Assembly (NCBI RefSeq): GCF_009761675.1
Contig: NZ_QUZH01000004.1
Coordinates: forward strand, 1-64,000
DNA: 64,000 nucleotides
Source: Bhargavaea sp. CC-171006
GTDB lineage: Bacteria > Bacillota > Bacilli > Bacillales_A > Planococcaceae
Reading direction: 5' to 3'
Shown here piece by piece: positions 4,894 to 20,600 of the stretch; the stretch's first letter is position 1, and each line of letters begins with the position of its first letter. The notes under the pieces are model-generated. The model searched no databases. It was not told where the DNA came from and was given only the letters and a program-made list of their open reading frames with translations. The position numbers were made by a program, and so were the translations under genes.

Positions 4894-5478
4894 TCATTTT
4901 TCTTCTGCCAGCAAATCGAACAATTCGGACCAGTCGCTGATCCTGGGAATGTCCATGTGCTGATTGTAGGATTGGTTCTTCGCGAAGACGTTCAGCGGAC
5001 GGTCGCTAAGCGTTTCAAGAACGGCGGGCTTGTCATCAAAGTAATAATCAAGTTCCAGCTCTTTGATGATATGTACCTTGTCCTCATCGTTCATGCCGTA
5101 AAAGAACCTGTCTTCCCGGACCGGAAAGCCGTTTTGAATCATCCATTCCATCGTCCGCTTTCCGTGTTCCTTTGGCCTGGCCGTTATATAGTAAATTTCA
5201 TGGCCTTCTTTTTCCAGCCTCTGCAGAGTTTCCGCCGCATCCCGATACGGCGGACAGTTTGTGTAATAGATTTCTTCAAGCGAACCGTTCCACATCTTCC
5301 CGCCTTCCTCAGCGGTCATGCCAAACAGTTCGTGGATTTCCACTTTGTCCAGTTCATGAAATAGGGAGATATCCACATTCCGGTTCAGTTTCCGGTTATA
5401 CAGATGGAAAGCATGTTCCCTCAGGTTGATCAGTGTATCGTCAATATCGAAACCGAATTTCAAATCAGATTCCCTCAT
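4894..5478 (-). CDS. HAD-family 5'-nucleotidase (NT5C/YqfW type)
   Basis: This 194-residue protein carries the HAD nucleophile motif FDIDDT (D11, D13), motif II YYITARP near 98-104, and DDKPAVLE near 150 supplying lysine and aspartate. It is of the type annotated as 5'(3')-deoxyribonucleotidase or YqfW-like nucleotidase. Its start overlaps the ribD stop by 4 nt, so it is translationally coupled to ribD. That placement suggests (inference) it may dephosphorylate the product of RibD, 5-amino-6-ribitylamino-uracil 5'-phosphate, a step performed by HAD phosphatases in B. subtilis. Ordinary nucleotide salvage is the alternative. Confidence 0.8.
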   Translation of the reverse strand: MRESDLKFGFDIDDTLINLREHAFHLYNRKLNRNVDISLFHELDKVEIHELFGMTAEEGGKMWNGSLEEIYYTNCPPYRDAAETLQRLEKEGHEIYYITARPKEHGKRTMEWMIQNGFPVREDRFFYGMNDEDKVHIIKELELDYYFDDKPAVLETLSDRPLNVFAKNQSYNQHMDIPRISDWSELFDLLAEEK

Positions 5479-6572
5479 TTTGTATTGTAGTTCGGATAGC
5501 CCGTGAACCTGTAATCTTTCCCGATTTTTGTGATTTCGAGATCATCCAGCTCCACGGCATCACGCATCAGTCCGACGCCGGTGCCTTCGAGGAATGTGGG
5601 CGCCTGTGCGCCGCCGATCAATTTCGGCGCCATATAGACCTCCACTTTATCGACGAGCCCGTTCTCAAGGAAAGCCGCATGGATCGAGCCTCCCCCTTCT
5701 ACCAGGACAGAAGAGACAAGTTGTTCGCCAAGCATACGGAGGACATCTTCCAAATCAACCCGTTCGGTCCCCGAGGTCGGAAAAACTGTAATCCCTCTCT
5801 CCTCCAACTCTTTCCTCGCGTCGTGATTATATTGTTTCGCGGTAAAAATCCATGTTTCCGCCTGCCCGTCCGTGACTACTTGGGATTCGAGGGGAATTCG
5901 GAGTGAGGAATCCAGAATGACTCGGATTGGGTTCCGGCCGTTCGGAATCCTCGTAGTCAGTTCAGGATCATCTTCTATGACCGTATTGACGCCGACCAGG
6001 ATCGCCATATGCTCGTTGCGGAGCCGATGGACATCCTTGCGTGCCTCTGCAGAGGTGATCCATTTGCTGTCGGCTGTATGAGTGGCAATTTTACCGTCCA
6101 ATGTGCTTCCCGCTTTCATCGTGATGAACGGCTTTTGTGTCACGATGAATTTGTTGAACACTTCATTCATCTTGCGGGACTCCTCTTCCATGACACCGAC
6201 TGTCACTTCAATGCCTGCTTCCTCCAGGATCCTGACCCCGTTTCCGGCGACAACCGGATTCGGATCAAGCGTGGCGACGACGGCTTTTCGGATCCCAGCT
6301 TCTACTATGGCGACCGCACAAGGCCCTGTCCGGCCATGATGAGAACATGGCTCAAGCGTGACGTAGATGGTCCCGCCTTTTGCCTTGTCCCCGGCCATCC
6401 TGAGGGCATGGATTTCCGCATGCGGCTCGCCTGCCTTCAGATGCGTCCCGATGCCCACGACCCGGTTGTCATTGACGATAACTGAACCGACGAGCGGATT
6501 CGGATCGGTCTGCCCTTTCATCGCACGTGCGTTTTCAAGTGCAAGATTCATATAAAATTCATGGCTGGTCAT
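5475..6572 (-). CDS. ribD: Riboflavin biosynthesis deaminase/reductase RibD
   Basis: A 365-residue bifunctional enzyme. Residues 1-145 are the cytidine-deaminase-like domain with zinc ligands in HAE (51-53) and PCSHHGRTGPC (75-85). Residues 147-365 are the dihydrofolate-reductase-like domain ending with VEGGGSIHAAFL and PKLIGG motifs. Together they convert the GTP cyclohydrolase II product to 5-amino-6-ribitylamino-uracil 5'-phosphate. Length is normal. It overlaps the upstream ribA-like gene by 14 nt and the downstream nucleotidase by 4 nt, forming one operon. No ribE or ribH follows, unlike a full rib operon. Confidence 0.93.
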   Translation of the reverse strand: MTSHEFYMNLALENARAMKGQTDPNPLVGSVIVNDNRVVGIGTHLKAGEPHAEIHALRMAGDKAKGGTIYVTLEPCSHHGRTGPCAVAIVEAGIRKAVVATLDPNPVVAGNGVRILEEAGIEVTVGVMEEESRKMNEVFNKFIVTQKPFITMKAGSTLDGKIATHTADSKWITSAEARKDVHRLRNEHMAILVGVNTVIEDDPELTTRIPNGRNPIRVILDSSLRIPLESQVVTDGQAETWIFTAKQYNHDARKELEERGITVFPTSGTERVDLEDVLRMLGEQLVSSVLVEGGGSIHAAFLENGLVDKVEVYMAPKLIGGAQAPTFLEGTGVGLMRDAVELDDLEITKIGKDYRFTGYPNYNTK

Positions 6573-7320
6573 CTGGATCTGGCGAGCCTCCCTCTAAGTG
6601 TCCGGATCGCTGGACCTTGGTCTGCAGATACTTTTCGTTAAACTCGGAGCGGTCACCCCATAACGGCTGACGTCCGGAAATCGGAAGGCCTGCCTTCTGC
6701 AGGGCATCCAATTTTTTCGGGTTATTGGTCATGAGGGTCACCGGCTTTTCCCTCAGGGTCTTCAGCACGCGGATAGCATCGTCATAGTTTCTGGAATCGT
6801 CGACAAACCCAAGGCTTTCGTTTGCTTCCACGGTATCATAGCCATTCTCCTGCAGCACGTAAGCCATCGCCTTGGAGAACAGGCCGATTCCTCGGCCTTC
6901 ATGATTCGCCAGATAAAACAGTGCACCCGCCCCGTGGTCCACGATATTCTTCATGGACTGTTTGAGCTGATAGCCGCAGTCGCACCGCCTGCTGCCGAAA
7001 ATGTCCCCGGTATGGCAAATGGAGTGCAGACGGATCAGCGCATCATCCGCGTTTTCAAAATCACCGTAGACGAGAACGCTCGACTGCTGGTATTCCGCCA
7101 GATTCGCAGATGACAGCCGGTCGATGATTTCCTGATAATCCTCTGTCACCTGGCATTGGTTCAGCCAGCAATACCACTGGAATACGACGGTATCCCCGTA
7201 AAGGTTCACTGGCAATCTGATCGGTCCCACCAGGTAGATGGCGCCTTCCCCGGTCTCAATCATTTGAATTTTTTCTTTCAGGACATCCAGCACTTTGGTT
7301 TCCAGCTTTGCTTGGACCAT
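6559..7320 (-). CDS. ribA: GTP cyclohydrolase II (RibA-like, monofunctional)
   Basis: A 253-residue protein with the GTP cyclohydrolase II core: zinc cysteines C102, C113 and C115 in CHTGDIFGSRRCDCG, the catalytic loop EGRGIGL (141-147), Y154 and R177. It would open GTP to the first pyrimidine of flavin synthesis. There is no DHBP synthase domain, unlike the fused RibBA of B. subtilis. The usual HSECLTGD reads HSICHTGD here, and about 85 N-terminal residues are divergent, so this is an outlying family member. It heads the ribA-ribD-nucleotidase unit. The leader is too short and AT-rich to hold an FMN riboswitch. Confidence 0.85.
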   Translation of the reverse strand: MVQAKLETKVLDVLKEKIQMIETGEGAIYLVGPIRLPVNLYGDTVVFQWYCWLNQCQVTEDYQEIIDRLSSANLAEYQQSSVLVYGDFENADDALIRLHSICHTGDIFGSRRCDCGYQLKQSMKNIVDHGAGALFYLANHEGRGIGLFSKAMAYVLQENGYDTVEANESLGFVDDSRNYDDAIRVLKTLREKPVTLMTNNPKKLDALQKAGLPISGRQPLWGDRSEFNEKYLQTKVQRSGHLEGGSPDPDDQP

Positions 7321-7398: not shown

Positions 7399-7505
7399 TC
7401 CTGTATGAATATTTGTTTTCTATAAAATAACACTGTATGATGGATAACGTCAATTTATCCATGTTACGATTATATGCAAATTCAAGATTTCAGGGAGGGC
7501 TGGAT

Positions 7506-8036
7506 ATGGAGATCGGTTCCAAAATACGTGCAATCCGCAAACGGAAAGGACTGACGATCGCACAGATGAGTGAGCAGACAGGCCTGTCCAAAGGGTTCAT
7601 CAGCAACATCGAGAACGACCATACTTCGCCCTCCCTCAATACACTGCAGTCCATCGCGGCCTTTCTGGATGTTCCGCTCCCCTACCTGCTCTTGGAGAAA
7701 AAGGAGCACATGAAAGTCGTGAGGAAAGCCGAGCGGGTGTACACATCGTTCAATGATATCAAGATCGAGCACCTCACTTCCCAAAGCGGCCTCCGGATGA
7801 TGCACGTCGAATTACCGCCCGGCGCCTCGACCGGCGAAGCGATCGCCCATGAAGGCGAGGAGGCTCATATCGTCCTGAAAGGCACCGTCCTGGCCGAACA
7901 GGGGGAAGACTCCGTCATCGCCGAAGAAGGCGATTCATTCAGCTGGAACGCAAGCGTCCCCCACTTTGTGAAAAACGTCGGGGACTCTGAGGCGATCCTG
8001 CTCATCGCGGTCCATTCAGAGAAGGGCAATCAATAA
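7506..8036 (+). CDS. XRE-family regulator with C-terminal cupin domain
   Basis: A 176-residue transcription factor. Residues 1-60 form a Cro/CI helix-turn-helix (IRAIRKRKGLTIAQMSEQTG then KGFISNIENDHTSPS). Residues about 95-172 form a cupin sensor domain (PPGASTGE, HEGEEAHIVLKG, GDSFSW). Such regulators bind DNA as dimers and sense a small molecule in the cupin. The frame opens at 7437, but ATG at 7506 follows GGGAGGG. It is divergent from the ribA-like operon with two dyads between them, so it may control that operon as well as itself; this is an inference from position. Confidence 0.85.
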   Translation: MEIGSKIRAIRKRKGLTIAQMSEQTGLSKGFISNIENDHTSPSLNTLQSIAAFLDVPLPYLLLEKKEHMKVVRKAERVYTSFNDIKIEHLTSQSGLRMMHVELPPGASTGEAIAHEGEEAHIVLKGTVLAEQGEDSVIAEEGDSFSWNASVPHFVKNVGDSEAILLIAVHSEKGNQ

Positions 8037-8285: not shown

Positions 8286-9003
8286 TCATTTTATATAGAA
8301 GTTAAATTCAGGATAGCGATATTTGCAAAATAAAATAACAAGCTGCTCCGGAAGAACAACGAGCATGACATAAAAGATTGCCAGCCCGAGAATGATCGCC
8401 GTCATTTCATTGAGCCCCTCAAGGCCTGATCACATATTGCAGGATGAAAAATATCCCGAGTCCGGCAGCAGTTGCAGCGTGGAGATAACTTTTATACTCG
8501 AACTTTTCACGCATCGCTGCCTGACGGGACCCGTCCCGATAATCTCCCCGCCGAATTTTCCTGATGAACCTTGCAAAAACCAGCAGAAACACTATTAGGC
8601 CGAACGTTAAGCTAATCCAGGTGAAGGTAATCATCGATTCAGCTGAAGCATCTGTCTCCTCTGCTATTAATAAAAGTGCACAGATATAAAATGTGATTCC
8701 GAACAGGTTTTGAGAAACCACGATACTGACCAAATACTGCACTTTCTCACTTCTCTTATACACAACAGGCAGTGAGTAAATCATTGATAGGGCGATCAAA
8801 ATAGCGGTGAACCAGAAATGGACAGACAGGATCTGATCCTTCCATGGATGGTCGGATGCATAAGCAAAGACATAATACTCCAAAGCATACAGTCCTCCCT
8901 GGAGAACTGTAGCCAGCACCATATTACCCGCAAGGTTCTAGGGACTCTGCCGCCCCGATTCAAGCGGCTTTCTTAACACAAACACATCTTTTTCTTGGAG
9001 CAA
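8286..9003 (-). pseudogene. Degraded copy of the polytopic candidate immunity protein
   Basis: This is a third, broken relative of the proteins at 9154-9927 and 11016-11816. Reading from a TTG at 9003 behind AAGGAGGGAAG, the N-terminus matches (VFVLRKPLESGRQSP). The Met that follows in the intact copies is replaced by a TAG stop at about 8940. The frame then continues in family register (LQGGLYALEYYV through FFILQYVIR) until a one-base shift near 8420 puts TGA in frame. In the shifted frame the family C-terminus resumes (LPEQLVILFCKYRYPEFNF) and ends at 8286. Two independent lesions make this a pseudogene, though the 167-residue middle frame from 8922 to 8419 stays open. Confidence 0.85.
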
Positions 9004-9032
9004 AGCTGCTTCCCTCCTTAATGAAACCAGCC

Positions 9033-9179
9033 TTAACTTATCCTTTGCAGAATTCCTCTAAGAATCATCACACAGCAAATTGCAATAAAGGCGCCTATGT
9101 AACCTGCTTCTTCGGTACGGTATCTCCTAGCTATGAAACGGATATCCGAACATTTAACTCTTTTCAGTTTCACCATCAT
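9033..9179 (-). CDS. Possible small single-pass membrane protein
   Basis: A 48-codon frame starts with a double ATG inside the last codons of the preceding membrane-protein gene in another frame and ends 30 nt before the pseudogene start. It has a basic N-terminus (KLKRVKCSDIRFIARRYR) and one strongly hydrophobic stretch (AGYIGAFIAICCVMIL). There is no clear ribosome site, so expression would depend on coupling to the overlapping gene. It may also be a chance frame or decayed sequence. I do not recognise a family. Confidence 0.3.
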   Translation of the reverse strand: MMVKLKRVKCSDIRFIARRYRTEEAGYIGAFIAICCVMILRGILQRIS

Positions 9180-9927
9180 GTGTGACTTCATCTAAATACG
9201 TTTGCCCTTTAAAGTTAAAGCTGCTGAAACGCAGTTTGCAATACAAAATGATGAGTTGCTCGGGAAGCACAAAACACATCGTGTAAAACACAGCAAAACC
9301 AATGAAAATGATGATGAGCTGGTTTGGATCCCCTAATCCCAGGTTCCTTAGAACATATTGGAGGATAAAGAAGAGGCCAAGACCGGCAACGGCAGCCGCA
9401 GGCAAGGAGGACTTATATTCGAATTTCTTTCGTATCTGTTCACTTCTCGATCCTCGACTATAATCCCCATTCCTGATTTTCCATATATAACGAAGGAACG
9501 TGAGGAGGAAGACGAAAATCCCCGCAAATAGTGTCACCTTAGTGAACGTCATCATGGAAGCATCCGACAAACCGGCTTCTATGTCTGTAACAGCAAATAA
9601 AGCCAGAATGTAGGAAGAAACACCAAACAGATTTTGTGAGAATACAATACTGATCAGATACTGCAATCTCTCAAACTTCCTATATACAATAGGTAACGCA
9701 AAAACGATACCAAGCCCAATTAAAATTAAACTAGTCCAGAAATGCAACTTAAGAATATCGTTTTTTAGTGGATGAGCACTTGAATATCCTATGACATAGA
9801 ATTCCAAAGCATATAATCCAGCTTGTAAAAAAGCGCCTAATACTAGGATTCCGGATAAGTTCATCGGACTTTGCAGGCCCGATACAAGCGGCGTTCTTAA
9901 CACAAATACATCTTGTTCTTTGAGCAT
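9154..9927 (-). CDS. Polytopic membrane protein, second copy of the candidate immunity family
   Basis: This 257-residue protein is clearly related to the one encoded directly after the LXG toxin gene. Shared landmarks are SGLQSPMNLSGI at about 16-27, LQAGLYALEFYV, QYLISIVFSQNLFGVSSYI, the loop GDYSRGSRSEQIRKKFEYKS, FILQYVLR, and the tail LPEQLIILYCKLRFSSFNF. About six transmembrane segments are predicted by eye. It has a strong GGAAGGAGG site. A terminator separates it from the effector operon, so it is probably transcribed separately. Function is unproven; an orphan immunity copy is the leading idea. Confidence 0.75.
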   Translation of the reverse strand: MLKEQDVFVLRTPLVSGLQSPMNLSGILVLGAFLQAGLYALEFYVIGYSSAHPLKNDILKLHFWTSLILIGLGIVFALPIVYRKFERLQYLISIVFSQNLFGVSSYILALFAVTDIEAGLSDASMMTFTKVTLFAGIFVFLLTFLRYIWKIRNGDYSRGSRSEQIRKKFEYKSSLPAAAVAGLGLFFILQYVLRNLGLGDPNQLIIIFIGFAVFYTMCFVLPEQLIILYCKLRFSSFNFKGQTYLDEVTHDGETEKS

Positions 9928-10019
9928 AACTATTTCCTCCTTCCAAACACCCGCCTTCCGGAGTCAACGTCAAGGTCTCCGCTGCCATCTTGGTTCAGGG
10001 TTTCAAACAGTTCAAATGA

Positions 10020-10058
10020 TAAAAAGCATCGCGCAACAAATGTTGCCGATGCTTTTTA
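10020..10058 (-). terminator. Terminator closing the effector operon
   Basis: AAAAAGCATCG and CGATGCTTTTT pair around an inner GCAACA/TGTTGC stem. It lies 31 nt beyond the last DUF5085 gene, with a T tract on the minus strand. Confidence 0.75.
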
Positions 10059-10089
10059 GGCCGATTCGCTCAGCACTTCCAGAAGAGAA

Positions 10090-10542
10090 CTATCCGCTGA
10101 CACCCACGCTCATTTCCACATATGTAGTTCCATCCGGGGCCTGCTTGTACTCCACGAAGACCGGTGTCTTCTGCTGCAGGTTATCCTTCTTCACATGATT
10201 GTAAAGCGCCCAGTAGGCAGCCTGTGACTGCTCATCAAAGTCATTCAGCAGACGGATTTTAGCAAGGCCTTTTACTTCAAAATAGCTTCGGAAAATAACT
10301 TCTTCCTCGGCAGGTACGGTCAGGTCGTTCTCTTTAATGCCCATATGCAGTTCGGCGGTCATCACTTCTGCAATCGGCTCGTTCAGCATCGTAAAGAATA
10401 GCCGGCCATCCACATTTGCACCGTGGGTCTGCAGGATAGTCCGGAAATCTTCGAAGGCGAGGCCGATCTCTGCAGGCACAAAGCTGTACCTTTTTGAAGC
10501 GACATTGCGATGCCGGATCATCCGGTTCTCGGTAATGTTCAT
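10090..10542 (-). CDS. DUF5085 family protein (second of pair)
   Basis: A 150-residue soluble protein with no signal or membrane segment. Its layout (start near RNVASKRYSF, FFTMLNEP, FRSYFEVKGLAKIRL, YNHVKKDNLQQKTPVFVEY, ending in a hydrophobic strand) looks like a GyrI-like/effector-binding fold and matches what I know as DUF5085, a family found next to LXG effector genes in Firmicutes. Its start overlaps the preceding DUF5085 gene by 4 nt. The role is unknown; a chaperone, specificity factor or immunity helper for the LXG protein are options suggested by position only. Confidence 0.65.
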   Translation of the reverse strand: MNITENRMIRHRNVASKRYSFVPAEIGLAFEDFRTILQTHGANVDGRLFFTMLNEPIAEVMTAELHMGIKENDLTVPAEEEVIFRSYFEVKGLAKIRLLNDFDEQSQAAYWALYNHVKKDNLQQKTPVFVEYKQAPDGTTYVEMSVGVSG

Positions 10543-10988
10543 TCCGGTCGTCCGCCTTCCACCGGAACGGCGAGGTCAATGATGATGTCACCGTAAACGT
10601 CGATCAGCACACAATAATAGTTCTGACCGAGAACGATGCCCTCCTTTTCGGCATGCATCCGGACTTTTCCAAAAGCCGCATCGAAGTCCGGCTCCTGCTC
10701 GGCCTGGCGCATGACGAGCGCATCCCCGGAATGGAAACGTTCCATATAGCCGAAACCGCTATCTTCAATTGCCATCGGTTCGCTGACCGGCAAATAATAC
10801 GTAAATGTTCCCGTTTCAGCTCCTTCTTTCCCGTCGAACGTGAAAAAGATGGGACCATTCTGATATACACCCTTATCCAGAAGAATTGTCTCCAGGGCGC
10901 CTATCGGCTCCTGCCAATCTGCTTTCTGTTGCTCAGTCTGATAAGTCAGTACGCGGTCAAACACGAGCGGTCGCCGTTCCATTGCCAT
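10539..10988 (-). CDS. DUF5085 family protein (first of pair)
   Basis: A 149-residue soluble protein built like its downstream neighbour (GPIFFTFDGKE, YYLPVSEPM, GDALVMRQAE, VRMHAEKEGIVLGQNYYCVLIDVYGDIIIDLAVPV), so the two are diverged tandem duplicates. The strand-helix pattern with paired central hydrophobic strands again suggests a GyrI-like small-molecule-binding fold. It starts 27 nt after the candidate immunity gene and is coupled by a 4-nt overlap to the second copy. No function can be assigned. Confidence 0.65.
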   Translation of the reverse strand: MAMERRPLVFDRVLTYQTEQQKADWQEPIGALETILLDKGVYQNGPIFFTFDGKEGAETGTFTYYLPVSEPMAIEDSGFGYMERFHSGDALVMRQAEQEPDFDAAFGKVRMHAEKEGIVLGQNYYCVLIDVYGDIIIDLAVPVEGGRPE

Positions 10989-11015
10989 GCCCCCACATCC
11001 TTTTTTGTAAGATTT

Positions 11016-11816
11016 CTATCTGTAATACGAATCTCCAAAGAGCTCCTCTTCTTCGTCTTCATCTCCCGGTTCATCCAAATATGGACGTCCCTCAAAGTTG
11101 AAGCTGCGATAACGCAGTTTATAATAGAAGATCGCTAATTGCTCAGGAAGAACAAACAACATGGTGTAGAAGATGCCAAATCCGATCAGCAGGAACACGA
11201 GGGTACCCAGTTCCTCCATCCCCGACTGCCGGATTACATACTGGATAATGAAGGAGATCCCGAGCCCGGCAACCGTAGCTGCGGGAAGATAGGATTTGTA
11301 TTCAAATCTCGCACGCATCTGGTCGCTTCTGGAGCCTTCCCGGTAATCGCCCTTGCGGATTTTCCAGATGAATCGTGCTGATGTCAGAATGAATATGAAA
11401 AGTCCCACAAGTAAAGTGGTCCATGTGAATGTCATGATCGAATCAGCCGATGCCCCGAATTTCCTGTCCGTTGCAACGAATAGCGCACAAATGTAGAAAG
11501 ACACTCCGAACAGATTTTGGGAATACAAGATACTGATCAAGTACTGAAGCTTTTCAAACCTTCTATAGACAAAGGGAATGGCAAGGAGGAGGCCCAGGAC
11601 AATCAAGACCGCACTCACCCAAAAATGCCACTGTAAGATTTCTTCTTTATACGGATGATCGGTGGAATACCCGACAATATAATATTCTGCCGCATACAGC
11701 CCCGCCTGAAGAAAGGCACCAAAAACAAAGATTCCGGATAAGTTCATCGGGCTTTGTCTGCCCGATTCAAGCGGCCGTCGCAGGACTGCGACCTTTTCAA
11801 AATTTTCGTTGTTCAT
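11016..11816 (-). CDS. Polytopic membrane protein, candidate immunity to the LXG effector
   Basis: A 266-residue membrane protein with about six hydrophobic segments and a highly acidic C-terminal tail (DEPGDEDEEEELFGD). It begins 13 nt after the LXG gene stop, the place where immunity genes sit in LXG cassettes. The LXG protein has a glycine-rich, membrane-seeking C-terminus, and a polytopic partner would suit protection against a membrane-acting toxin. Two relatives, one intact and one broken, lie downstream. The family was not recognised; it does not look like the DUF443 immunity proteins I recall from S. aureus. Immunity is an inference from position and duplication. Confidence 0.7.
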   Translation of the reverse strand: MNNENFEKVAVLRRPLESGRQSPMNLSGIFVFGAFLQAGLYAAEYYIVGYSTDHPYKEEILQWHFWVSAVLIVLGLLLAIPFVYRRFEKLQYLISILYSQNLFGVSFYICALFVATDRKFGASADSIMTFTWTTLLVGLFIFILTSARFIWKIRKGDYREGSRSDQMRARFEYKSYLPAATVAGLGISFIIQYVIRQSGMEELGTLVFLLIGFGIFYTMLFVLPEQLAIFYYKLRYRSFNFEGRPYLDEPGDEDEEEELFGDSYYR

Positions 11817-11829
11817 TCAGTTGCCCCCA

Positions 11830-13419
11830 TCACCGGAACCAGCCTTTAATGTGATCCATGGCAGATTTGTCCGAATCACCGAATTTCTTGTTCAGGAGCC
11901 AGTTGGCCCCGATACCTGCTGCCATGCCTATTGCGGTGCCGACACCAGGAATCGGTATGAGGGCGGTTCCCGCTGCTGTGAACCCGGCCTGTACGGCTCC
12001 GCCGACAGCGGTATCGACTGCCGTATCCAAAGCGGCCCGTTTATGGGCTTCCCCGCCGCTCAGACCATCCGCTGTTGCACTCTCATAGTTGCCAGCGTAG
12101 GCAAGGCCGGCCCCGATCGGGCCAAGCGCTTTACCCGTTCCTCTGATGAGTCCGCTCGCTTTGTTCATGACTCCAGGGTCTTTGACCCGCTTGAATTCAT
12201 CAACCGTTCCTTTGGCATCCCAAAGATCGGTGAATGCGCCGGTGGTCCCTTTCACTGTCGCTGTGCCTATGACTTTGCCCTTTTGCCCGACGGTGGTCGC
12301 ACGTCCGGTGAAATGCTCGATATCCGGATGCATCGTCTTCACTTTCTCGCCGGTAGGGGACCAGCCGCTCTGCCCCGGTTTGCGGGTGGCATATTTCAGC
12401 ATGACGCTTCTGCTTTCGTATTGGGCAACTTGCTGCGGAGTCCATTTGCTCCGATCTTTCGGCAGACCGCGAGTCAGCATCTTCTCAACTTGTGCATCAA
12501 GCGGGACTCTGAGGGTATCCAGTGCTTTTTTGGAAGCGTTGATGCGGTATTTATAGCTTTGACTTTTGGGATCCCATGCACGGGTGGTTTGTATCCCGCC
12601 TTTGCGGCCAGCCACGTAAAGCGCAAACGCTGACATGCCGCCTTCCCCTTTACCGACCTTGTCCACCACGTCAGCACCGGACTGGATCGCTTTCGAGACA
12701 CTCGCCCAGTTGAGCGCACCCTCTTGATCTGCCTCAAACGGGACGGTGCAGATGTTTTCCCCTGTGATCATCGGATGGCCCTCCATATAGGCCTTCCAGT
12801 CTTCAGCAGGGAAATCGACGTCTGTGATGCCGTCTTTGAACATTCCCTCGATCTCTCCAAGCCACTGCCCCATCCGGAGCAGACCGTCACGCACCGGGAC
12901 AAGGGCATTTCTCTGGGTAGAATCGAATTCGTTCAGATCGGTGACTGTGTTATCCTTTTTTTTCCTCGCACTCCGGATGCCCTGCTGGACGTCACTGTCA
13001 TCCAGATGTGGCAATGACGTAATATCCGCGACAGAGTCCATTATTCCGTTTGCATCGGAAGTGAGGTTCCTTGAAATGGTGGACATTGTGCTCAGGCCGG
13101 TCTCGACTTCGCTTTCGAGAAATCCCTCCCTGATATATCCTGAGGCATTTGGTTCCAGTGATTCCTGCGCAGACTGGATGGAAGTCAGAACAGAATCGAA
13201 CGTGCCGGCAAAGCTCTCGAACTGGTTGAGCAAGGGCAGATGGCAGTCGCGATAAAATGCCTTGATCGCCTCCCCGCCGCTTCCGGCCAGAGAATCCCCC
13301 AGGTCCGTTACTTCCTGCACGCCTGTCCGGATCGCATCCATTTCCTGCTGAAGACTTTTCAACTTATCCCGGTTGCGCTGCAGCCCTTCCCTGAAGGGTG
13401 ATACATCGAGCGTTTTCAT
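11830..13419 (-). CDS. LXG-domain type VII secretion effector with glycine-rich C-terminus
   Basis: A 529-residue protein. Residues 1 to about 215 form the helical LXG targeting domain (LDVSPFREGLQRNRDKL, many heptads, ending near WLGEIEGMF). The middle (about 215-415) is variable and basic. The last ~110 residues are rich in Gly and Ala (ASGLIRGTGKALGPIGAGLAYAG, GGAVQAGFTAAGTALIPIPG, GTAIGMAAGIGANWLL), a glycine-zipper pattern seen in membrane-inserting type VII toxins. No nuclease or ADP-ribosylase motif is apparent. It sits in the same operon as essA and its two helical partners, 35 nt after the YwqI-like gene, and is probably the main effector of this system. Confidence 0.85.
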   Translation of the reverse strand: MKTLDVSPFREGLQRNRDKLKSLQQEMDAIRTGVQEVTDLGDSLAGSGGEAIKAFYRDCHLPLLNQFESFAGTFDSVLTSIQSAQESLEPNASGYIREGFLESEVETGLSTMSTISRNLTSDANGIMDSVADITSLPHLDDSDVQQGIRSARKKKDNTVTDLNEFDSTQRNALVPVRDGLLRMGQWLGEIEGMFKDGITDVDFPAEDWKAYMEGHPMITGENICTVPFEADQEGALNWASVSKAIQSGADVVDKVGKGEGGMSAFALYVAGRKGGIQTTRAWDPKSQSYKYRINASKKALDTLRVPLDAQVEKMLTRGLPKDRSKWTPQQVAQYESRSVMLKYATRKPGQSGWSPTGEKVKTMHPDIEHFTGRATTVGQKGKVIGTATVKGTTGAFTDLWDAKGTVDEFKRVKDPGVMNKASGLIRGTGKALGPIGAGLAYAGNYESATADGLSGGEAHKRAALDTAVDTAVGGAVQAGFTAAGTALIPIPGVGTAIGMAAGIGANWLLNKKFGDSDKSAMDHIKGWFR

Positions 13420-13454
13420 TGATTTCCCTCCTTTTCCCGCTGAGCATTCAATCC

Positions 13455-13748
13455 TTATTCGGGCTTGGGTCCGTTTCCTGTGCCGCTGATGGCGGTTGCC
13501 AGCTGCTGATCGACGTCTGCAAGGAAGTTGATTGATTCCTCTGATGACAACACATTCTTCTGAAGCAACTCGCGGTAGCGGGTCAGCATCTGCTCCATAT
13601 AGGTCATGAGTTCATTCAGCGAATCAGCGGTATCGAGTGTATTTCCGGTGATCTGGCCTGGCGCTGTTGTTTCCAGCGAAGACGCTTTTGCATCCAACGC
13701 TTCGAGCTTGGCCCGGACTTCCTCAAAGGCCACTTTCAATTCTGTCAT
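13455..13748 (-). CDS. YwqI-like DUF5344 family partner of the LXG protein
   Basis: A 97-residue, almost entirely helical protein (TELKVAFEEVRAKLEALDAKAS ... LNELMTYMEQMLTRYRELL). Its size, position and pattern match YwqI of B. subtilis, which lies between ywqH and the LXG gene ywqJ. Such WXG100-like partners are thought to pair with the LXG domain and form the secretion-competent complex. The preferred ATG at 13748 follows GGAGGG by 7 nt; a GTG one codon earlier is also open. Confidence 0.7.
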   Translation of the reverse strand: MTELKVAFEEVRAKLEALDAKASSLETTAPGQITGNTLDTADSLNELMTYMEQMLTRYRELLQKNVLSSEESINFLADVDQQLATAISGTGNGPKPE

Positions 13749-13763
13749 CACTTATCCCTCCGG

Positions 13764-14114
13764 TTATCGTTGCCGCTCCGCCGCTTCCTGCGCGCGGAGC
13801 TGGGCGATGACCGATTCAAGTGACCGGATTTCGCTCTGCAACAAAGTGATTTTATTGTCGATCGCAGAATAGGCATTCTGGAATTGAGGTCCGGACACTT
13901 CAAGATATGGTGTCAGGATTCCCGACTCCCGTGTGCTTTCGAACTTACTGGCATGCTGTCCATGCCATGTACGGGCAGTCAGTTCTGGTTCGCTGAATTT
14001 AGATTCTTTAGATTGGAATTCGCCCTGTTTCCCCTGCAGTTCCCCCTTGCAGCTGCTCAGCCGCCTGATCTGCTGCCGCTTTTCCTCCACAAGCATCTGA
14101 TAATACGAGATCAT
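13764..14114 (-). CDS. YwqH-like DUF5082 family partner of the LXG protein
   Basis: A 116-residue helical protein with a long coiled coil (YYQMLVEEKRQQIRRL, then LLQSEIRSLESVIAQLRAQEAAERQR) and a central W in the turn region TARTWHGQHA, resembling a WXG hairpin. It corresponds in size and order to YwqH (DUF5082). Its ATG overlaps the essA stop by 4 nt, which ties the effector cassette to the secretion apparatus operon. Confidence 0.7.
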   Translation of the reverse strand: MISYYQMLVEEKRQQIRRLSSCKGELQGKQGEFQSKESKFSEPELTARTWHGQHASKFESTRESGILTPYLEVSGPQFQNAYSAIDNKITLLQSEIRSLESVIAQLRAQEAAERQR

Positions 14115-14659
14115 GCGATTTTCCCCTCCGTTTCTTCCTTGCGCCTGACTGTAGGAGTTCCCTTAGTGCCGCTCTTCAGCAGCGCTGGGACCATAAGGCC
14201 GAAGAGACCCAGCATCGCCGCCCCAATCAGGCTGATGAAGACATAAGTGCGGATGCTGCTGCTATCCGCAGCCTCATCCGGCACTTCCGCCGGTTGACTT
14301 GCCTGCGCCTGCGATTTCTCTGCTGGCGCAGTGAACAGGCCCAGTTCCTCAGCCTTCGCTGCCGCCGTCCCCGTTTCGGGACGCCCCGCTTCCAGGAACA
14401 GGTCATCCACTTCTATCGGAGATCTGAATCGGACCGGTTCGGAAAAATCAAGATTGACCCGTTCCTCGGTCAGCGTGTTCTTCATCTCGACCTGCCTGCT
14501 ATCATGAAGATATTCTGTCTTCTTCCTGAAGGGAAGTGACTTGTATTCAAGCGGTTCCAGCGAATCTGCCGGTGCGTCTCCTGTATTGGCGGTAGCCGGA
14601 ATAGCTGCAGAAGATATTGTGGTTGCCAGAAGGATGGCTCCGGCATGCTTAACTTTCAT
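14111..14659 (-). CDS. essA: Type VII secretion protein EssA (YueC)
   Basis: A 182-residue protein with an N-terminal signal-like segment (AGAILLATTISSAAIPATA), a charged extracellular stretch of about 120 residues, and one C-terminal transmembrane helix (YVFISLIGAAMLGLFGLMVPAL), the topology of EssA/YueC. EssA is a small membrane component of the Firmicutes type VII machine. The frame allows a GTG at 14686, but ATG at 14659 follows AGGAAG with proper spacing. It overlaps the end of esaA by 11 nt and the YwqH-like gene by 4 nt. Confidence 0.8.
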   Translation of the reverse strand: MKVKHAGAILLATTISSAAIPATANTGDAPADSLEPLEYKSLPFRKKTEYLHDSRQVEMKNTLTEERVNLDFSEPVRFRSPIEVDDLFLEAGRPETGTAAAKAEELGLFTAPAEKSQAQASQPAEVPDEAADSSSIRTYVFISLIGAAMLGLFGLMVPALLKSGTKGTPTVRRKEETEGKIA

Positions 14660-17618
14660 ACGATTCTTCCTGAATGACGGTTTCACCGGTTCGCCATCTT
14701 TTTACAAGCCATGCCGCAATGAGCAACACCACTGCCGCAATGCCGGCGATAGCTGCTCCGGAATCAAACAGCGTAACCGGATCATACTTGATGGACATGT
14801 AGACCGGCGAGAGGATATCCGGAATATCGGCTTCAGGTACGCCTAGTTTCAGCAACGGGGCGATATAGAGACAGATGAGGGCAATTGCCGCGATCCATCC
14901 TGCTGTCTCAGCCGAATCCAGTGCCGTGCTGATAAGTGCAGATCCTGCAATGACGATAAGGATTGTGAAAAGCGTCCATTCGATTGCACGCTGGTCATTC
15001 AGAGCGTACATGTTCACACTGTACAGGCTGATGATCAGTCCTGTGATGCCGCCCAGAAGAGCCAGCATTCCTGTCCTGAGCAAGGGAGTACCTTCTCGCA
15101 TTTTATGGCTGAAGAAGCCGATGGCCAGACTGCTGATCAGCAGGATGACATATAGAATTGCCGGCGGAACCTTCTTCATCTCTTCCCCTGCGATCGCTTC
15201 TCCGCGCACGCTGAGAGGATTGGTAAAATGATCGAACACGTATCCGTTCTCCTGCCCATCCACATAGGTGTTGTCGAGGAAACTGGAAACGTCATCACTG
15301 AATGCTGTGATTGCCTCTAAGTTCTGACGCCATTTTTCACTGTACGAATCGGTCGCGCTCTCGAAACCTTCCGCTTTGCCCTGCAGTTCTCGTGCGTAGT
15401 TGACAATACTGTCCTGACGCTCGGAAACCTCACTTACGGTAGAACTCAGGCTGACGAGTTGCATGCCAATGTTCTGCTGATCAGATACGAGCTCTCCTTC
15501 ATTCGAAAGAACTTCCGGTTCACTTTCCTGAAGGCGGGTTGCCGGATCGCGAAGTTGTGCTAAAAGCGAATCAGCCTGATCGCCAATTGACTGCAGGTTC
15601 TCGAGTAGTTTCATATGCTGCATCCCAACGGACTCCTCATATCCGGAGACGATCGCGGTGAACGAGGAATTCCATTCTTCGACACGGGCACCGGTCTCGG
15701 GAAGCCCTTCACTGACCTTAGCCCATTGGAGCTTTTCCTCTTCCTTGAGCGCTGCAATATTCTTTGTCAGGGTATTGATAATTTCATCCTTCAGCACTTC
15801 ATCTTTCCTCTGTTGGCGTCCGTCCTTCCGGTCATCCAACGTGAACGCCATTTGCTCCAAGGTCGCGTAGTAGGCAAGGAGCGAGTCAAGATCTTTGGCT
15901 GCCGGCGCCTGCTTGAACAGACCTTTCAGTTCCTTCTTTCGTTCCGGGGAGAGGGTATCCAGTTGGAGGAGGCCTGCTTCCTTCCGTTCAATCTCCCGGA
16001 CAATGGCAACCGTGTTTTCCGGATATTCCTCAAGATATAGTTTCGTCTCCGAGTAGATGGCCAACAGACTTTCATAGGCACTGTAAAGATCACTGTAGTA
16101 GCCGGCTGCAACCTTCACTGCGTTTTCCTTGTCTTCCGCTTCACCATTGCCGTTACCGTTACCTTCACCATTGCCATTGCCATTGCCTTTACCGTTTCCT
16201 TCAGATCCGGCCTCTTCTTCCTTTTCTCCGATCGATTCGTTTACTTCAGATAGTTTGCCTGACAGTTCATCAAGCTGGGCCGGGATTTCCGATTCAGGCT
16301 GTTCTTCTGCGATCTGCTGCTTCAGGCCATCGATCGACGCTGCAAGAGCAGTGATCGTTTCCTTTTCTTCCTCCAGGGAAGGCAGACCTCCGCCTTCTTC
16401 AGGAGCTTCAGGTTCTGGCTGTTCCGGAGGTGCCGGCTCTTCCTTTTCCTGCTCTTTGGCGAGCCGTTCGAGTTCTGCCTTGATGGCCTCGAAATCTGTA
16501 ATGTCCGGCAGACCATCAACGACAGGCGCATCCGGAATCTTAGAGCCTGCTCCGTCTTTCAGATTCTTCTGGAGGGTGCCGATCAATGTGTCGTTATACT
16601 CATCAATCGCCGTTCCCTGGAGTGCAAGAATTTCCTCTGCCTGGCGTTCTGCCTGTTTGAGGCGGACTTGCTCCAAGTCATTGAACTTCTCCTGATTAAG
16701 CGCAATCTGTTTATTCACTTTTTCCAATTCCGCGGCCAATTGGCCGTTGTTTTCCTTTAGACGGCGGACGGTTTCCTCGTATTCAGCTGCCTGTCCGGCA
16801 GCCATTTCCTGGATTTTAGCGATATTGTCCGATTGCAGTTCTTCAAGGACCCCGCGCTGTTCAACCTGGAATGCCTGATAGGACTGGACATCCTGCAGGA
16901 AACCGGAAAGTTCGTTCTTGAACGCTTCCACATGATCGACACGAGCTGCGTGATCCTGGTCAGATGCGCCTTCAACGGTCTCTCTTAATTGTTCCATCTG
17001 TTCGCGCTGTCTCTGCATGACATCCGCAAGTTCGGAAGAACCCGGGTCGTAATACGCAACCATTGCATCGAGGAACTCACTTTCCTTGTCCAGAATCGAT
17101 GCAAACTCTTTCTTGATATGATCCATTTCGATTGCGACATAGCTCCAGTACATGGTTGAGATTCTGCCGTTTACGCGATCTGTTGCACGCTCAATCTCTT
17201 TTAATGCGTTTTTCTTGGAGTCCGCGTTTTTCTGCTGCTGGATCGTGTAATTGAATTCTGCCTTTTGCGGATTCTGTTCATCATAGGACATGACGTTCGA
17301 CGAAAAGTCGGACGGGATGTACAGGACGGCATCATAGCGGTTTGATTTCAGGCCGCTTTCCGCTGCCCCCCTGCCGGTCACTTCCCAGTTGTAGTCGGAG
17401 TCTTCGGAGAGGATGGAGAGTACTTCCTTGCCCATCTCGATTTTCTGTTCTTCCCGTTCGCTCCCCAGGTCTTCGTTGACTACGGCGATTGTCCGTTCAG
17501 CCGGCTCGGCGAACGATGTGAAGCTGCCCGACATAAAGCCAAAGAACAGGACAGGCAACGCGAGGATGGCGATGACTCCCCCAATGATCGACGCCGATTT
17601 TTTTACATTGCTATTCAT
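14649..17618 (-). CDS. esaA: Type VII secretion protein EsaA (YueB)
   Basis: A 989-residue membrane protein. It has an N-terminal transmembrane helix (about 9-30), a very long extracellular coiled-coil region (about 60-790) and five or six transmembrane helices from about 800 to the end. This is the YhgE/Pip-like build of EsaA/YueB. In B. subtilis YueB is the receptor of phage SPP1. The ectodomain contains a Gly-Asn-rich linker near residues 475-490 encoded by 6-bp tandem repeats. ATG at 17618 overlaps the essC stop by 4 nt (ATGA) and follows GGAGAAGGAG; the longer frame from 17645 has no advantage. Confidence 0.9.
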   Translation of the reverse strand: MNSNVKKSASIIGGVIAILALPVLFFGFMSGSFTSFAEPAERTIAVVNEDLGSEREEQKIEMGKEVLSILSEDSDYNWEVTGRGAAESGLKSNRYDAVLYIPSDFSSNVMSYDEQNPQKAEFNYTIQQQKNADSKKNALKEIERATDRVNGRISTMYWSYVAIEMDHIKKEFASILDKESEFLDAMVAYYDPGSSELADVMQRQREQMEQLRETVEGASDQDHAARVDHVEAFKNELSGFLQDVQSYQAFQVEQRGVLEELQSDNIAKIQEMAAGQAAEYEETVRRLKENNGQLAAELEKVNKQIALNQEKFNDLEQVRLKQAERQAEEILALQGTAIDEYNDTLIGTLQKNLKDGAGSKIPDAPVVDGLPDITDFEAIKAELERLAKEQEKEEPAPPEQPEPEAPEEGGGLPSLEEEKETITALAASIDGLKQQIAEEQPESEIPAQLDELSGKLSEVNESIGEKEEEAGSEGNGKGNGNGNGEGNGNGNGEAEDKENAVKVAAGYYSDLYSAYESLLAIYSETKLYLEEYPENTVAIVREIERKEAGLLQLDTLSPERKKELKGLFKQAPAAKDLDSLLAYYATLEQMAFTLDDRKDGRQQRKDEVLKDEIINTLTKNIAALKEEEKLQWAKVSEGLPETGARVEEWNSSFTAIVSGYEESVGMQHMKLLENLQSIGDQADSLLAQLRDPATRLQESEPEVLSNEGELVSDQQNIGMQLVSLSSTVSEVSERQDSIVNYARELQGKAEGFESATDSYSEKWRQNLEAITAFSDDVSSFLDNTYVDGQENGYVFDHFTNPLSVRGEAIAGEEMKKVPPAILYVILLISSLAIGFFSHKMREGTPLLRTGMLALLGGITGLIISLYSVNMYALNDQRAIEWTLFTILIVIAGSALISTALDSAETAGWIAAIALICLYIAPLLKLGVPEADIPDILSPVYMSIKYDPVTLFDSGAAIAGIAAVVLLIAAWLVKRWRTGETVIQEESYES
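16144..16199. repeat. Hexanucleotide repeat in the esaA ectodomain
   Basis: About nine 6-bp units of the type CATTGC / CGTTAC / CTTCAC encode alternating Gly-Asn. Length change in units of six would keep the frame and alter a linker by two residues per step. Confidence 0.7.
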
Positions 17619-20600
17619 CGTACGTTCTCCTTCTCCAGTGTGCATAACGGGATCATGATTTTCGTGCTGTTCCCGTTCAGGATGTAATGTGCAAAGCCGG
17701 CAGGGAGCTCGGCTTCCTTCCGTTCATATGGAACATTGAAGAGCGTCTGCTCGGATTTCTTCATGAAAACTAGTGCCTGGCGCACAAGTTTCAGCTCGTT
17801 TGTGAATACGTCGTAGCCTTTAGTGAACTCGGCGTTGTTGCCTGACACGGCCACATTGAATCCGAGGTGCCCATAGTTTTTCATCAGTTTTACCAGCCTG
17901 TCCTGAATGCGGACATCCGCGGTCTGCATGAATCTCGAGTAGCCGTCGATAAACAGAAACACAGGGACGGGGTTGAATGGAAGACCGGTCTGCACAGCTG
18001 CGACATAAGCCGCTTCTGCCTCCTGCAGATAGGCTTCCGCCTGGGTGATCCATTCTTCCAACTGCTCTTTGGTTTCTGCATACGTGACTTCAGGATCCCG
18101 TGCGTATTCCGATAATCCCCGTTCAAAAGAGTCAAATATGGCGACAGGACCTGTTTCCTGCTTCCTGGCCGTACGGATCAACAGCTTCATCGCATTGGTT
18201 TTGCCCTTGCCGGGGAGGCCAACCATCAGAATATGGCGATGTTTGCTGAAGTCCACCGACACGGGCAGGACAGTCTCTTCATCCAGACCGATCGGAATGA
18301 TTCCCGATGAGACGGGTTGCCCGGCAAGTCCGTCGAAGTGTTCGGCCGACAGCTCGGCCGGCAACATCGGGATCGGAGCAGGGCCTTTTCGTTCCGCATA
18401 CCGTATGCGTAGATCCCGGACCCGTTCCTTGACCCCGTTCAAGACGCCAAAATCGTCCGCCCCGTCCGCCGGAAGGAACATCTGGCCAAACATGGCTTCT
18501 TCCGTTTTGATGATTGCCCTGCCGGGAAAAGGTTCCGGCGTAAACGGCGGACGCCCGATCATGCCGTACATTTCAGATGAATCCATCAGATAGTGGACAA
18601 TCTTCATCTTCAGATTATTCATCAGGTGATGACGCACCGACTGAGGGCGGGTCGCCGTCAGCAGAAGATGGATCCCCAGGGACGAGCCGTCACGGCTGAA
18701 CTGGCTCATCTGAAGCTCCAGTTCCTCCAACTCATCACGGATGATGTCGTAGTTATCGACCGCAAGATAGATGAGCGGCAGCGGCTGTTGCGATATCCGG
18801 TTGTACATCTGGATGGAGCTGACCTCGGCCTGCTGGAACAAGTTCTTTCTCTTGCTGATTTCCGCCCGGATCATCCGGACCATTTTTTCCCGTTTCAATT
18901 CCTCATCGAGGGTCAGGTAATCTGCAGTATGAGGAAGCTGCCGGAGTGGAAGCAGTGTACCGTTGCCATAGTCGAGAAGATAGAAATGTACCTCTTCCGG
19001 TGTCATGCTTTGCGCAATCCCCAAAAGGAGGGACTGCAATGTATAGGACTTTCCATAACCGGTGGAACCGAAAATCCCTACATTTCCGTCTTCCAACGGG
19101 TTATAGCCTACTGCCCGCTGGCTCTGCTTTTCCGGCTCATCTATGATGGCAATCGCGAAACCGGCACCATCGTATTGGCGGTCGCCAACATTGGCAAGCC
19201 GGTCAGGCAGCGGCGGCAGCCACGGGCTCCGGAGCCGTCGGATGCCGAGCTGATCTGCCGTCGATGCTATCGAGGCTGTCACGGCATCAATTTCCGTCAT
19301 GTTGCTCCGCTTTCCCTTCACGACAGCCGACAGGCCGGTTAGCGGTTCCAGTCCCAGGTCGGTGACGATTGCCACTTCATCTTCCCCATCGTGCGTCTCG
19401 TTCTGGTAAGGCGCCCCGCTCCAGGCAGACTGAAACAGTTCGTACACTTCATTGTTTCCGACCTGGAGATAACCGCGTCCGGTCACCGTGATGTTCGCCG
19501 CATCCCCATTTTTAAGAATCTCCTTGCTGTCCGATGCATCCTGCACTTTCAGCGCGATCCTGAACCTTGCGTTGCTCCAGATCTGATCGTCGATGATGCC
19601 GCCCGGTTTCTGTGTCGCAAGAATCAGGTGGACCCCCAGGCTTCGGCCAATCCGCGCCGCACTGACAAGTTCACGGATGAATTCCGGCTCCTCGGTCTTC
19701 AACTCAGCGAATTCATCCGAAATCAGAAACAGATGTGGCATCGGCTCCGGTGCTTCTCCGCTTTTGTAGAGTTCAGTGTATTCATCGATATGGGTGACGG
19801 TATGCCGGTCAAACAGGCGTTGCCGCCGCTTTAGTTCGCTCTTGATCGAGGCGAGTGCCCGGTCACTGAAGTTCCGGCTCCCTTCGATGTTGGTGATTGT
19901 CCCCAGCAAATGGGGAATGTTCCGGAATGGCTGTGCCATGCCGCCGCCTTTGTAGTCGATAAGAAGGAATGCGACTTCATGCGGATGGAACTTTACCGCG
20001 AGCGAAAGAATATACGTCTGCAGTAACTCCGACTTACCTGAACCCGTCGTCCCCGCCAAAAGTCCGTGTGGTCCGTGGGCCTTCTCATGGAGGTTCAGTT
20101 CGATCAGGTCCTCGCGCCCCTTGTATCCGACTGGAGCCGCCAGGGAGCGTGCAGACTGGTTCGTATTCCAGTTTTCAGCGATCGCCAGGTCATCCGCATC
20201 CGTCACGCCGTACATATCGAGGAAGCTGACCATTGAAGGAAGGGAGTTCGTGACACCGGTTTGGTGGTCCAGCGTCCTCAGCATTCTTGCGAAATGCTCA
20301 TTACCTCCTGTATTCTGTGCATCCAGTCTGAATCTGGTGTCAGCGGCGATGCCATCCCGAATGAGGATGTCACCCTCACGGTCGTTGACATAACGGACAA
20401 GCATATGTACATTTTCCGTGATCCGCTCTTTCGCATTCGCCGTGAAGATGACGGAAATGCCCAATGCTTCATGGTCCTTCCCTTCAAGAAACTCCATGAT
20501 GATGTGTTCAGACAGCAGCTTATAATCAGAAACGATGAAAACAAGATGCGGTGCAAAACGTACCTTGCCTTTGTTCTCGTCATTGTCACGTTCCCTCAGA

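Follow-up and report, generated by a model that had tools for sequence, protein, structure and literature searches.

A probable branch-wise split of riboflavin synthesis

The three-gene unit ribA2-ribD-HAD, encoded on the minus strand of the window (the whole 64-kb stretch of DNA analyzed here), probably represents the A branch of riboflavin synthesis, gathered in one operon outside FMN-riboswitch control. In the proposed mechanism, RibA2 would open GTP to give 2,5-diamino-6-ribosylamino-pyrimidinone phosphate, RibD would deaminate and reduce this product to 5-amino-6-ribitylaminouracil phosphate (ARAPDP), and the HAD protein would take the phosphate off ARAPDP, while RibB, lumazine synthase, and riboflavin synthase would be supplied by a second operon controlled by an FMN riboswitch. 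In the Bhargavaea lineage the module would have displaced the original ribD; elsewhere in the family, in other genera, it would also have taken the place of the cyclohydrolase half of RibBA. Judging by gene content, a branch-wise split of riboflavin synthesis across two operons is the most likely arrangement: the textbook operon appears to have been dismantled one branch at a time, so that vestiges of the replaced gene can still be seen, one half of a bifunctional enzyme appears to have been lost repeatedly once a spare existed, and the operon context offers a candidate for the step about which least is known in the riboflavin synthesis of bacteria.

The unit comprises ribA2 (6559..7320, 253 aa), a GTP cyclohydrolase II (GCHII) gene of the HSICHTGD subtype from a clade separate from RibBA, ribD (5475..6572, 365 aa), predicted to encode a bifunctional deaminase/reductase, and a gene for a HAD phosphatase of the NT5C (5'(3')-deoxyribonucleotidase) type (4894..5478, 194 aa), a candidate ARAPDP phosphatase. 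All three lie head to tail, and their frames overlap by 14 nt (ribA2/ribD) and 4 nt (ribD/HAD), which confirms the coupling by overlaps that the original prediction had placed at 4894-7320 on this strand. RibA2 matched PF00925 with 153.6 bits (Pfam) and PRK00393 with 193 bits (above the cut-off of 148), but stayed below the cut-offs of the bifunctional RibBA models and of TIGR00505 ribA (180.9 bits, cut-off 205.85). RibD scored 404.6 bits with TIGR00326 (cut-off 156.35) and went past the cut-offs of both PF00383 and PF01872, which puts deaminase and reductase domains in one chain; its best solved relative by sequence is 2b3z. The HAD protein matched PF06941 (NT5C) with 41.9 bits (cut-off 24.8). 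Neither an FMN riboswitch nor any other Rfam family was detected at gathering score within the 64-kb window, in agreement with the claim that the unit has no FMN riboswitch, and promoter and terminator scans were near chance level. The view that the set would suffice to make 5-amino-6-ribitylaminouracil was supported as well.

The rest of the pathway and the remains of native ribD

The genome assembly (3,266,877 bases, 32 contigs, 99.81% complete) carries on contig C18 an operon of the order FMN riboswitch (104 bits)-ribE-ribBA-ribH, from which ribD is absent. The original prediction had noted the absence of ribE, ribH, and DHBP synthase, and this holds at the locus but not genome-wide; there is a rib operon elsewhere with ribE, ribBA, and ribH, but it has lost its own ribD. 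The unit would therefore be the sole source of ribD in the genome but not of ribA: the window ribD is the only full-length copy found by sequence search (the one other RibD_C match of the genome is in a frame of 184 aa, which leaves no room for a deaminase domain as well), while GCHII was matched twice, in RibA2 and in the RibBA of contig C18. Because its ribD is the only full-length one found, the unit should serve riboflavin, and with the missing genes located on C18 a non-flavin product in place of riboflavin was not borne out as the main reading. The GCHII half of this RibBA, with which RibA2 shares 46% identity over 176 residues, looks intact, so RibA2 is not strictly needed in the window genome. 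A second FMN riboswitch of the same genome (G000:C18:89364-89497, locus L007) is perhaps located at a riboflavin transporter.

The gap between riboswitch and ribE on contig C18 is a 680-bp scar with faint ribD remains. When the RibD of a congener (G067) was used as tblastn query against a database of eight short sequences, this scar was matched at E 9.8e-7 and 1.4e-6 and the scars of five further Bhargavaea genomes (G003, G022, G040, G056, and G077) at best E-values per genome between 4e-6 and 6e-28, giving ribD remains in six of the six Bhargavaea scars examined; a scar from another genus (G139) was matched at 8.7e-38, and a control stretch of 650 bp gave no match at E 10. The signal was weaker with the RibD of G020 as query (four of seven scars at E < 0.001) or with the window RibD (two of seven at E 1e-5). 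Both congeners without a RibA2 match (G067 and G086) keep the order riboswitch-ribD-ribE-ribBA-ribH; native ribD therefore appears to have decayed in the lineages with the new unit, which is why the window operon would now hold the sole complete ribD of its genome. A RibD tree rooted at its midpoint places the window RibD among other RibA2-linked RibDs, at a distance from the native ones encoded by G067, by G086, and in the rib operon of G020. Operons that also hold a monooxygenase gene (see below) have RibDs that lie nearer to the native RibDs than the window RibD does, so RibD may differ in origin between the two operon types.

The rib operon of Bacillus subtilis is under the control of an FMN riboswitch. 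Its genes, given as ribDG-E-AB-H in PMC9048828, encode in sum the same enzymes, and the riboswitch operon described here keeps ribE, ribBA, and ribH, but ribD is gone from it except for remains and is encoded instead in a second operon, which lacks the riboswitch and carries another GCHII gene and a HAD gene. Vibrio cholerae also has an additional GCHII gene apart from its main rib operon, likewise named ribA2 (PMC5312566); it is monocistronic there, whereas the present one is coupled to ribD and a phosphatase gene. The Bacillota ribE-ribB-ribH operon with tandem FMN riboswitches of PMC12452182 looks like the other half of the split; the main text of that paper contains no word starting with ribA or ribD and does not treat the destination of the front half. 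In the literature searched by title, abstract, and passage, no paper was recognized as being about a ribA-ribD-HAD operon, which is weak evidence of novelty.

RibA2 and the truncation of RibBA

Within the family, RibA2 was found in 112 of 151 genomes (called at a best E ≤ 2e-88, the next best match being at 1.6e-49). PF00926 was present in 139 of the 151, as a short RibB (open frame ≤ 277 aa) in 76 and as a long RibBA (≥ 396 aa) in 63, and RibA2 occurred in 75 of the 76 short-RibB genomes vs. 31 of the 63 long-RibBA genomes (Fisher p 7e-13, a test that ignores kinship). From this co-occurrence, RibA2 very probably replaces the cyclohydrolase half of RibBA in the short-RibB genomes, in 70 of which no GCHII other than RibA2 was matched. 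In the single exception (G054), RibA, RibD, and RibE all went unmatched and RibB is cut. Short RibB together with RibA2 was observed in 12 of 19 genera, eight of which also contain long RibBA; as the two forms are mixed within these eight genera, one ancestral event cannot explain the pattern and the loss would have recurred. The number of GCHII matches per genome was not taken as the main test, because one genome (G060) counts a single match though its RibBA holds a GCHII half. RibA2 was also present in further families in a class-wide search of 299 genomes.

Since it appears to stand in for the RibBA half, RibA2 should make diaminopyrimidine phosphate from GTP. Its best solved relative, by sequence and by fold, is 2bz0 (E. 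coli GCHII), with a fold match at E 1.7e-13 from a predicted model of middling confidence (mean pLDDT only 71.5) that was used for fold only. Residues C102, C113, C115, Y154, D175, and R177 align with C54, C65, C67, Y105, D126, and R128 of 2bz0, which we take to be the zinc cysteines and the catalytic Tyr, Asp, and Arg of E. coli RibA, and are invariant in 21 sequences; R97, Q118, E141, and R143 are also kept. A loss of the catalytic tyrosine, considered by eye from the FYLANHEG stretch, was ruled out by the 2bz0 alignment. The departure from the HSECLTGD consensus pointed out in the original prediction is real: the motif reads HSICHTGD, and because it is invariant in both a 21-sequence and a 30-sequence alignment it is better seen as the mark of a subfamily than as a defect. 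RibA2 does not belong to the clade that the 10 compared RibBA sequences form (support 0.999), and its nearest named matches, among the best 80 of at least 588, come from Bhargavaea species (93-98% identity).

It is very improbable that RibA2 has an altered product, such as the formylated pyrimidine FAPy that the Streptomyces GCHII SCO6655 reportedly yields, or an altered substrate, as a UTP cyclohydrolase would. The invariant change in HSICHTGD and the score under the TIGR00505 cut-off would agree with such a shift, and the fold search lists UTP cyclohydrolase (7ej3/7eev) with a query TM of 0.57-0.59 vs. 0.54-0.56 for E. coli GCHII; however, sequence identity to UTP cyclohydrolase is 18% vs. 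35-36% to E. coli GCHII, and RibA2 stands in for the RibBA half across the family. Moreover, the three zinc cysteines, R97, Q118, E141, R143, D175, R177, and Y154 are kept, the last being the counterpart of E. coli Y105, which we assume to be the product-switch residue, with a residue other than Tyr at this position in GCHII of the SCO6655 type. No such non-Tyr residue was found in RibA2 when aligned with 2bz0. A FAPy/formamidase route, as outlined in PMC9478397, was set aside once the tyrosine was seen to be kept.

Operon make-up and the HAD phosphatase

Gene neighborhoods were compared over 121 loci with RibA2 or a RibA2-like gene, of which the first family set gave 21 (the window among them), the class set 20, and the named matches 80. 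As these 80 are the top scorers out of at least 588, close relatives are over-represented; frames and starts were picked mechanically. All three genes shared one same-strand run in 62 loci (seven with a monooxygenase gene), ribA2 and ribD occurred without HAD in 15 (one with a monooxygenase gene), ribA2 had none of the other three genes with it in 41, which weighs against the preferred reading, and three loci showed other combinations. With starts chosen in this way, the ribA2 and ribD frames overlapped in 77 of 86 neighboring pairs. The monooxygenase belongs to the FAD_binding_3 family (four proteins tested) and was located by tblastn in 12 of 120 loci, between ribD and HAD in nine (one of them a remnant) and upstream of ribA2 in three. 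Some of the 121 runs also held genes for luciferase-like (four), DoxX (three), or LigB (two) proteins. One genome (G071) has two RibA2 copies of different subclades (L047 5916-6698 and L048 5467-6213), with ribD beside only one of them.

From its operon context, the HAD protein is a candidate phosphatase for the poorly known dephosphorylation step of riboflavin synthesis, a role for which the original prediction had already put it forward; it accompanies 62 of the 77 runs holding ribA2 and ribD, and D11, D13, T99, K134, D148, and D149, to which we assign the HAD motif roles, are invariant in 42 sequences. Its AlphaFold2 model (mean pLDDT 92.4) matched best the fold of 3bwv (TMq 0.74), followed by a Bacteroides pyrophosphatase and human and mouse deoxyribonucleotidases, and no solved relative was found by sequence at E 0.1. 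NT5C relatives of this protein act on deoxynucleotides, and it might be a house-cleaning deoxynucleotidase merely riding in the operon, which we hold to be possible, if somewhat unlikely. The PF06941 family, the description of 3bwv as deoxyribonucleotidase-like, the next best TM-scores of 5'(3')-deoxyribonucleotidases, and the 15 of 77 ribA2-ribD runs without HAD speak for a rider, but HAD overlaps ribD or lies within 60 bp of it in 59 of 62 neighboring ribD-HAD pairs, and PMC12051542 reports broad HAD phosphatases able to perform the dephosphorylation in B. subtilis and E. coli, as well as in Arabidopsis, with a histidine-family phosphatase in Aquifex. According to the same paper, no dedicated phosphatase had been identified before it. 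The reaction predicted for the window HAD is the same as theirs; unlike those enzymes, it is of the NT5C type and encoded inside an operon with ribA2 and ribD.

A possible use beside riboflavin

In addition to serving riboflavin, the unit might supply 5-amino-6-ribitylaminouracil, or a compound derived from it, to some non-flavin product or use, and in one operon type the flavin monooxygenase encoded between ribD and HAD would then act on this compound. We regard this as unlikely, although several findings point to it. Six genomes (G083, G149, G095, G110, G088, and G097) have no RibB, RibH, or RibE matches, yet their ribA2 and ribD frames are still open. Between the near-identical genomes G095 and G110 (rpoB dS 0.01), ribA2, ribD, and HAD differ by 41 synonymous and 7 non-synonymous changes and are under purifying selection (p 2e-15 in a binomial test that assumes a neutral share of 0.7). 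A loss common to the two is the simplest reading, though an assumption, and would mean that selection has maintained the unit in the absence of riboflavin synthesis. The rpoB tree does not make G083 and G149 sisters, so that the losses would have recurred. The FAD_binding_3 matches and the more distant RibA2-like genes near WD-repeat genes (four loci) fit a non-flavin use too. On the other side, the window ribD is the only full one found in a genome with riboflavin genes, the module goes along with the disappearance of the cyclohydrolase half from RibBA, individual genomes may have lost their genes only recently, and G097 is fragmented (450 contigs) and 8% contaminated. Synonymous sites of the lone auxotrophs are near saturation, so their dN/dS was left aside.

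Barring recent losses, the retention of RibA2 and RibD in the six genomes would not be explained by riboflavin alone, and these apparent auxotrophs would allow a direct test for a non-flavin role. GCHII went entirely unmatched in the remaining six genomes of the first set that have no RibH (G014, G036, G050, G052, G055, and G099). In a wider set, 19 of 261 family genomes were without RibH, and the seven new ones divided into two with RibA2 (assemblies ≤ 90% complete) and five without it. That 5-amino-6-ribitylaminouracil has a separate use in addition to flavin, such as that of a dicarbonyl/electrophile scavenger or of a monooxygenase-modified precursor, seems to us distinctly unlikely; if true, it would explain why the module is kept in the apparently auxotrophic relatives and why luciferase-like, DoxX, and LigB genes are at times neighbors of RibA2.

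Regulation

For the preferred reading, a riboflavin branch outside riboswitch control, the distribution of FMN riboswitches is informative. None was detected at the RibA2 operons of the window, L041, L179, or 11 further loci (13 besides the window), while 17 of 18 scanned loci with the rib back-half genes had one or two, the miss being L184 of G054. The divergently encoded XRE-cupin protein (HTH_3 and Cupin_2; 7506..8036 on the plus strand with the likely start at 7506, longest frame 7437-8036) is a candidate regulator of the unit, and its orthologues were found at 13 of the 121 loci, six of them from Bhargavaea (window included). The divergent intergenic region contains an operator-like inverted repeat, TGTTnnnTATAAnnTAACA (7414..7432), the sole site in the window at ≤ 1 mismatch (0.00 expected), although the pattern was drawn partly from the window promoter and is not independent of it. 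Exact sites were also found at RibA2 or regulator promoters of other genera (L075 of G260, L116, L125, L140, and L141), and RibA2 shares its run with LigB and DoxX genes in L116 and L125 and with a DoxX gene in L141. RibA2 operons may provide a stress-linked supply of flavin precursor.

Other observations

Tandem FMN riboswitches precede ribE in five loci (L180, L181, L186, L188, and L189), and in L172 a partial ribD copy lies between two FMN riboswitches. The RibA2-like genes near WD-repeat genes are those of L042 (3993-12846), L085, L086, and L087; L042 also has FGE-sulfatase and MFS genes and a RibD, a gene set reminiscent of toxoflavin-type clusters. A cluster of this type was rejected for the window locus, where the neighbors examined with Pfam include no WD-repeat or sulfatase-like protein. 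Elsewhere in the window, a collagen-like repeat protein is encoded at 1335-2342 (BclA_C match below cut-off), and 8419-17645 may be an effector locus of type VII secretion in which immunity-like genes are repeated. It encodes an LXG-domain protein (PF04740, 11830-13419) and its DUF5344 and YwqH-like partners, and DUF5085 is matched weakly; a protein of 998 aa matches ABC2-membrane, and three membrane proteins (8419-8922, 9154-9927, and 11016-11816) resemble one another on visual inspection.
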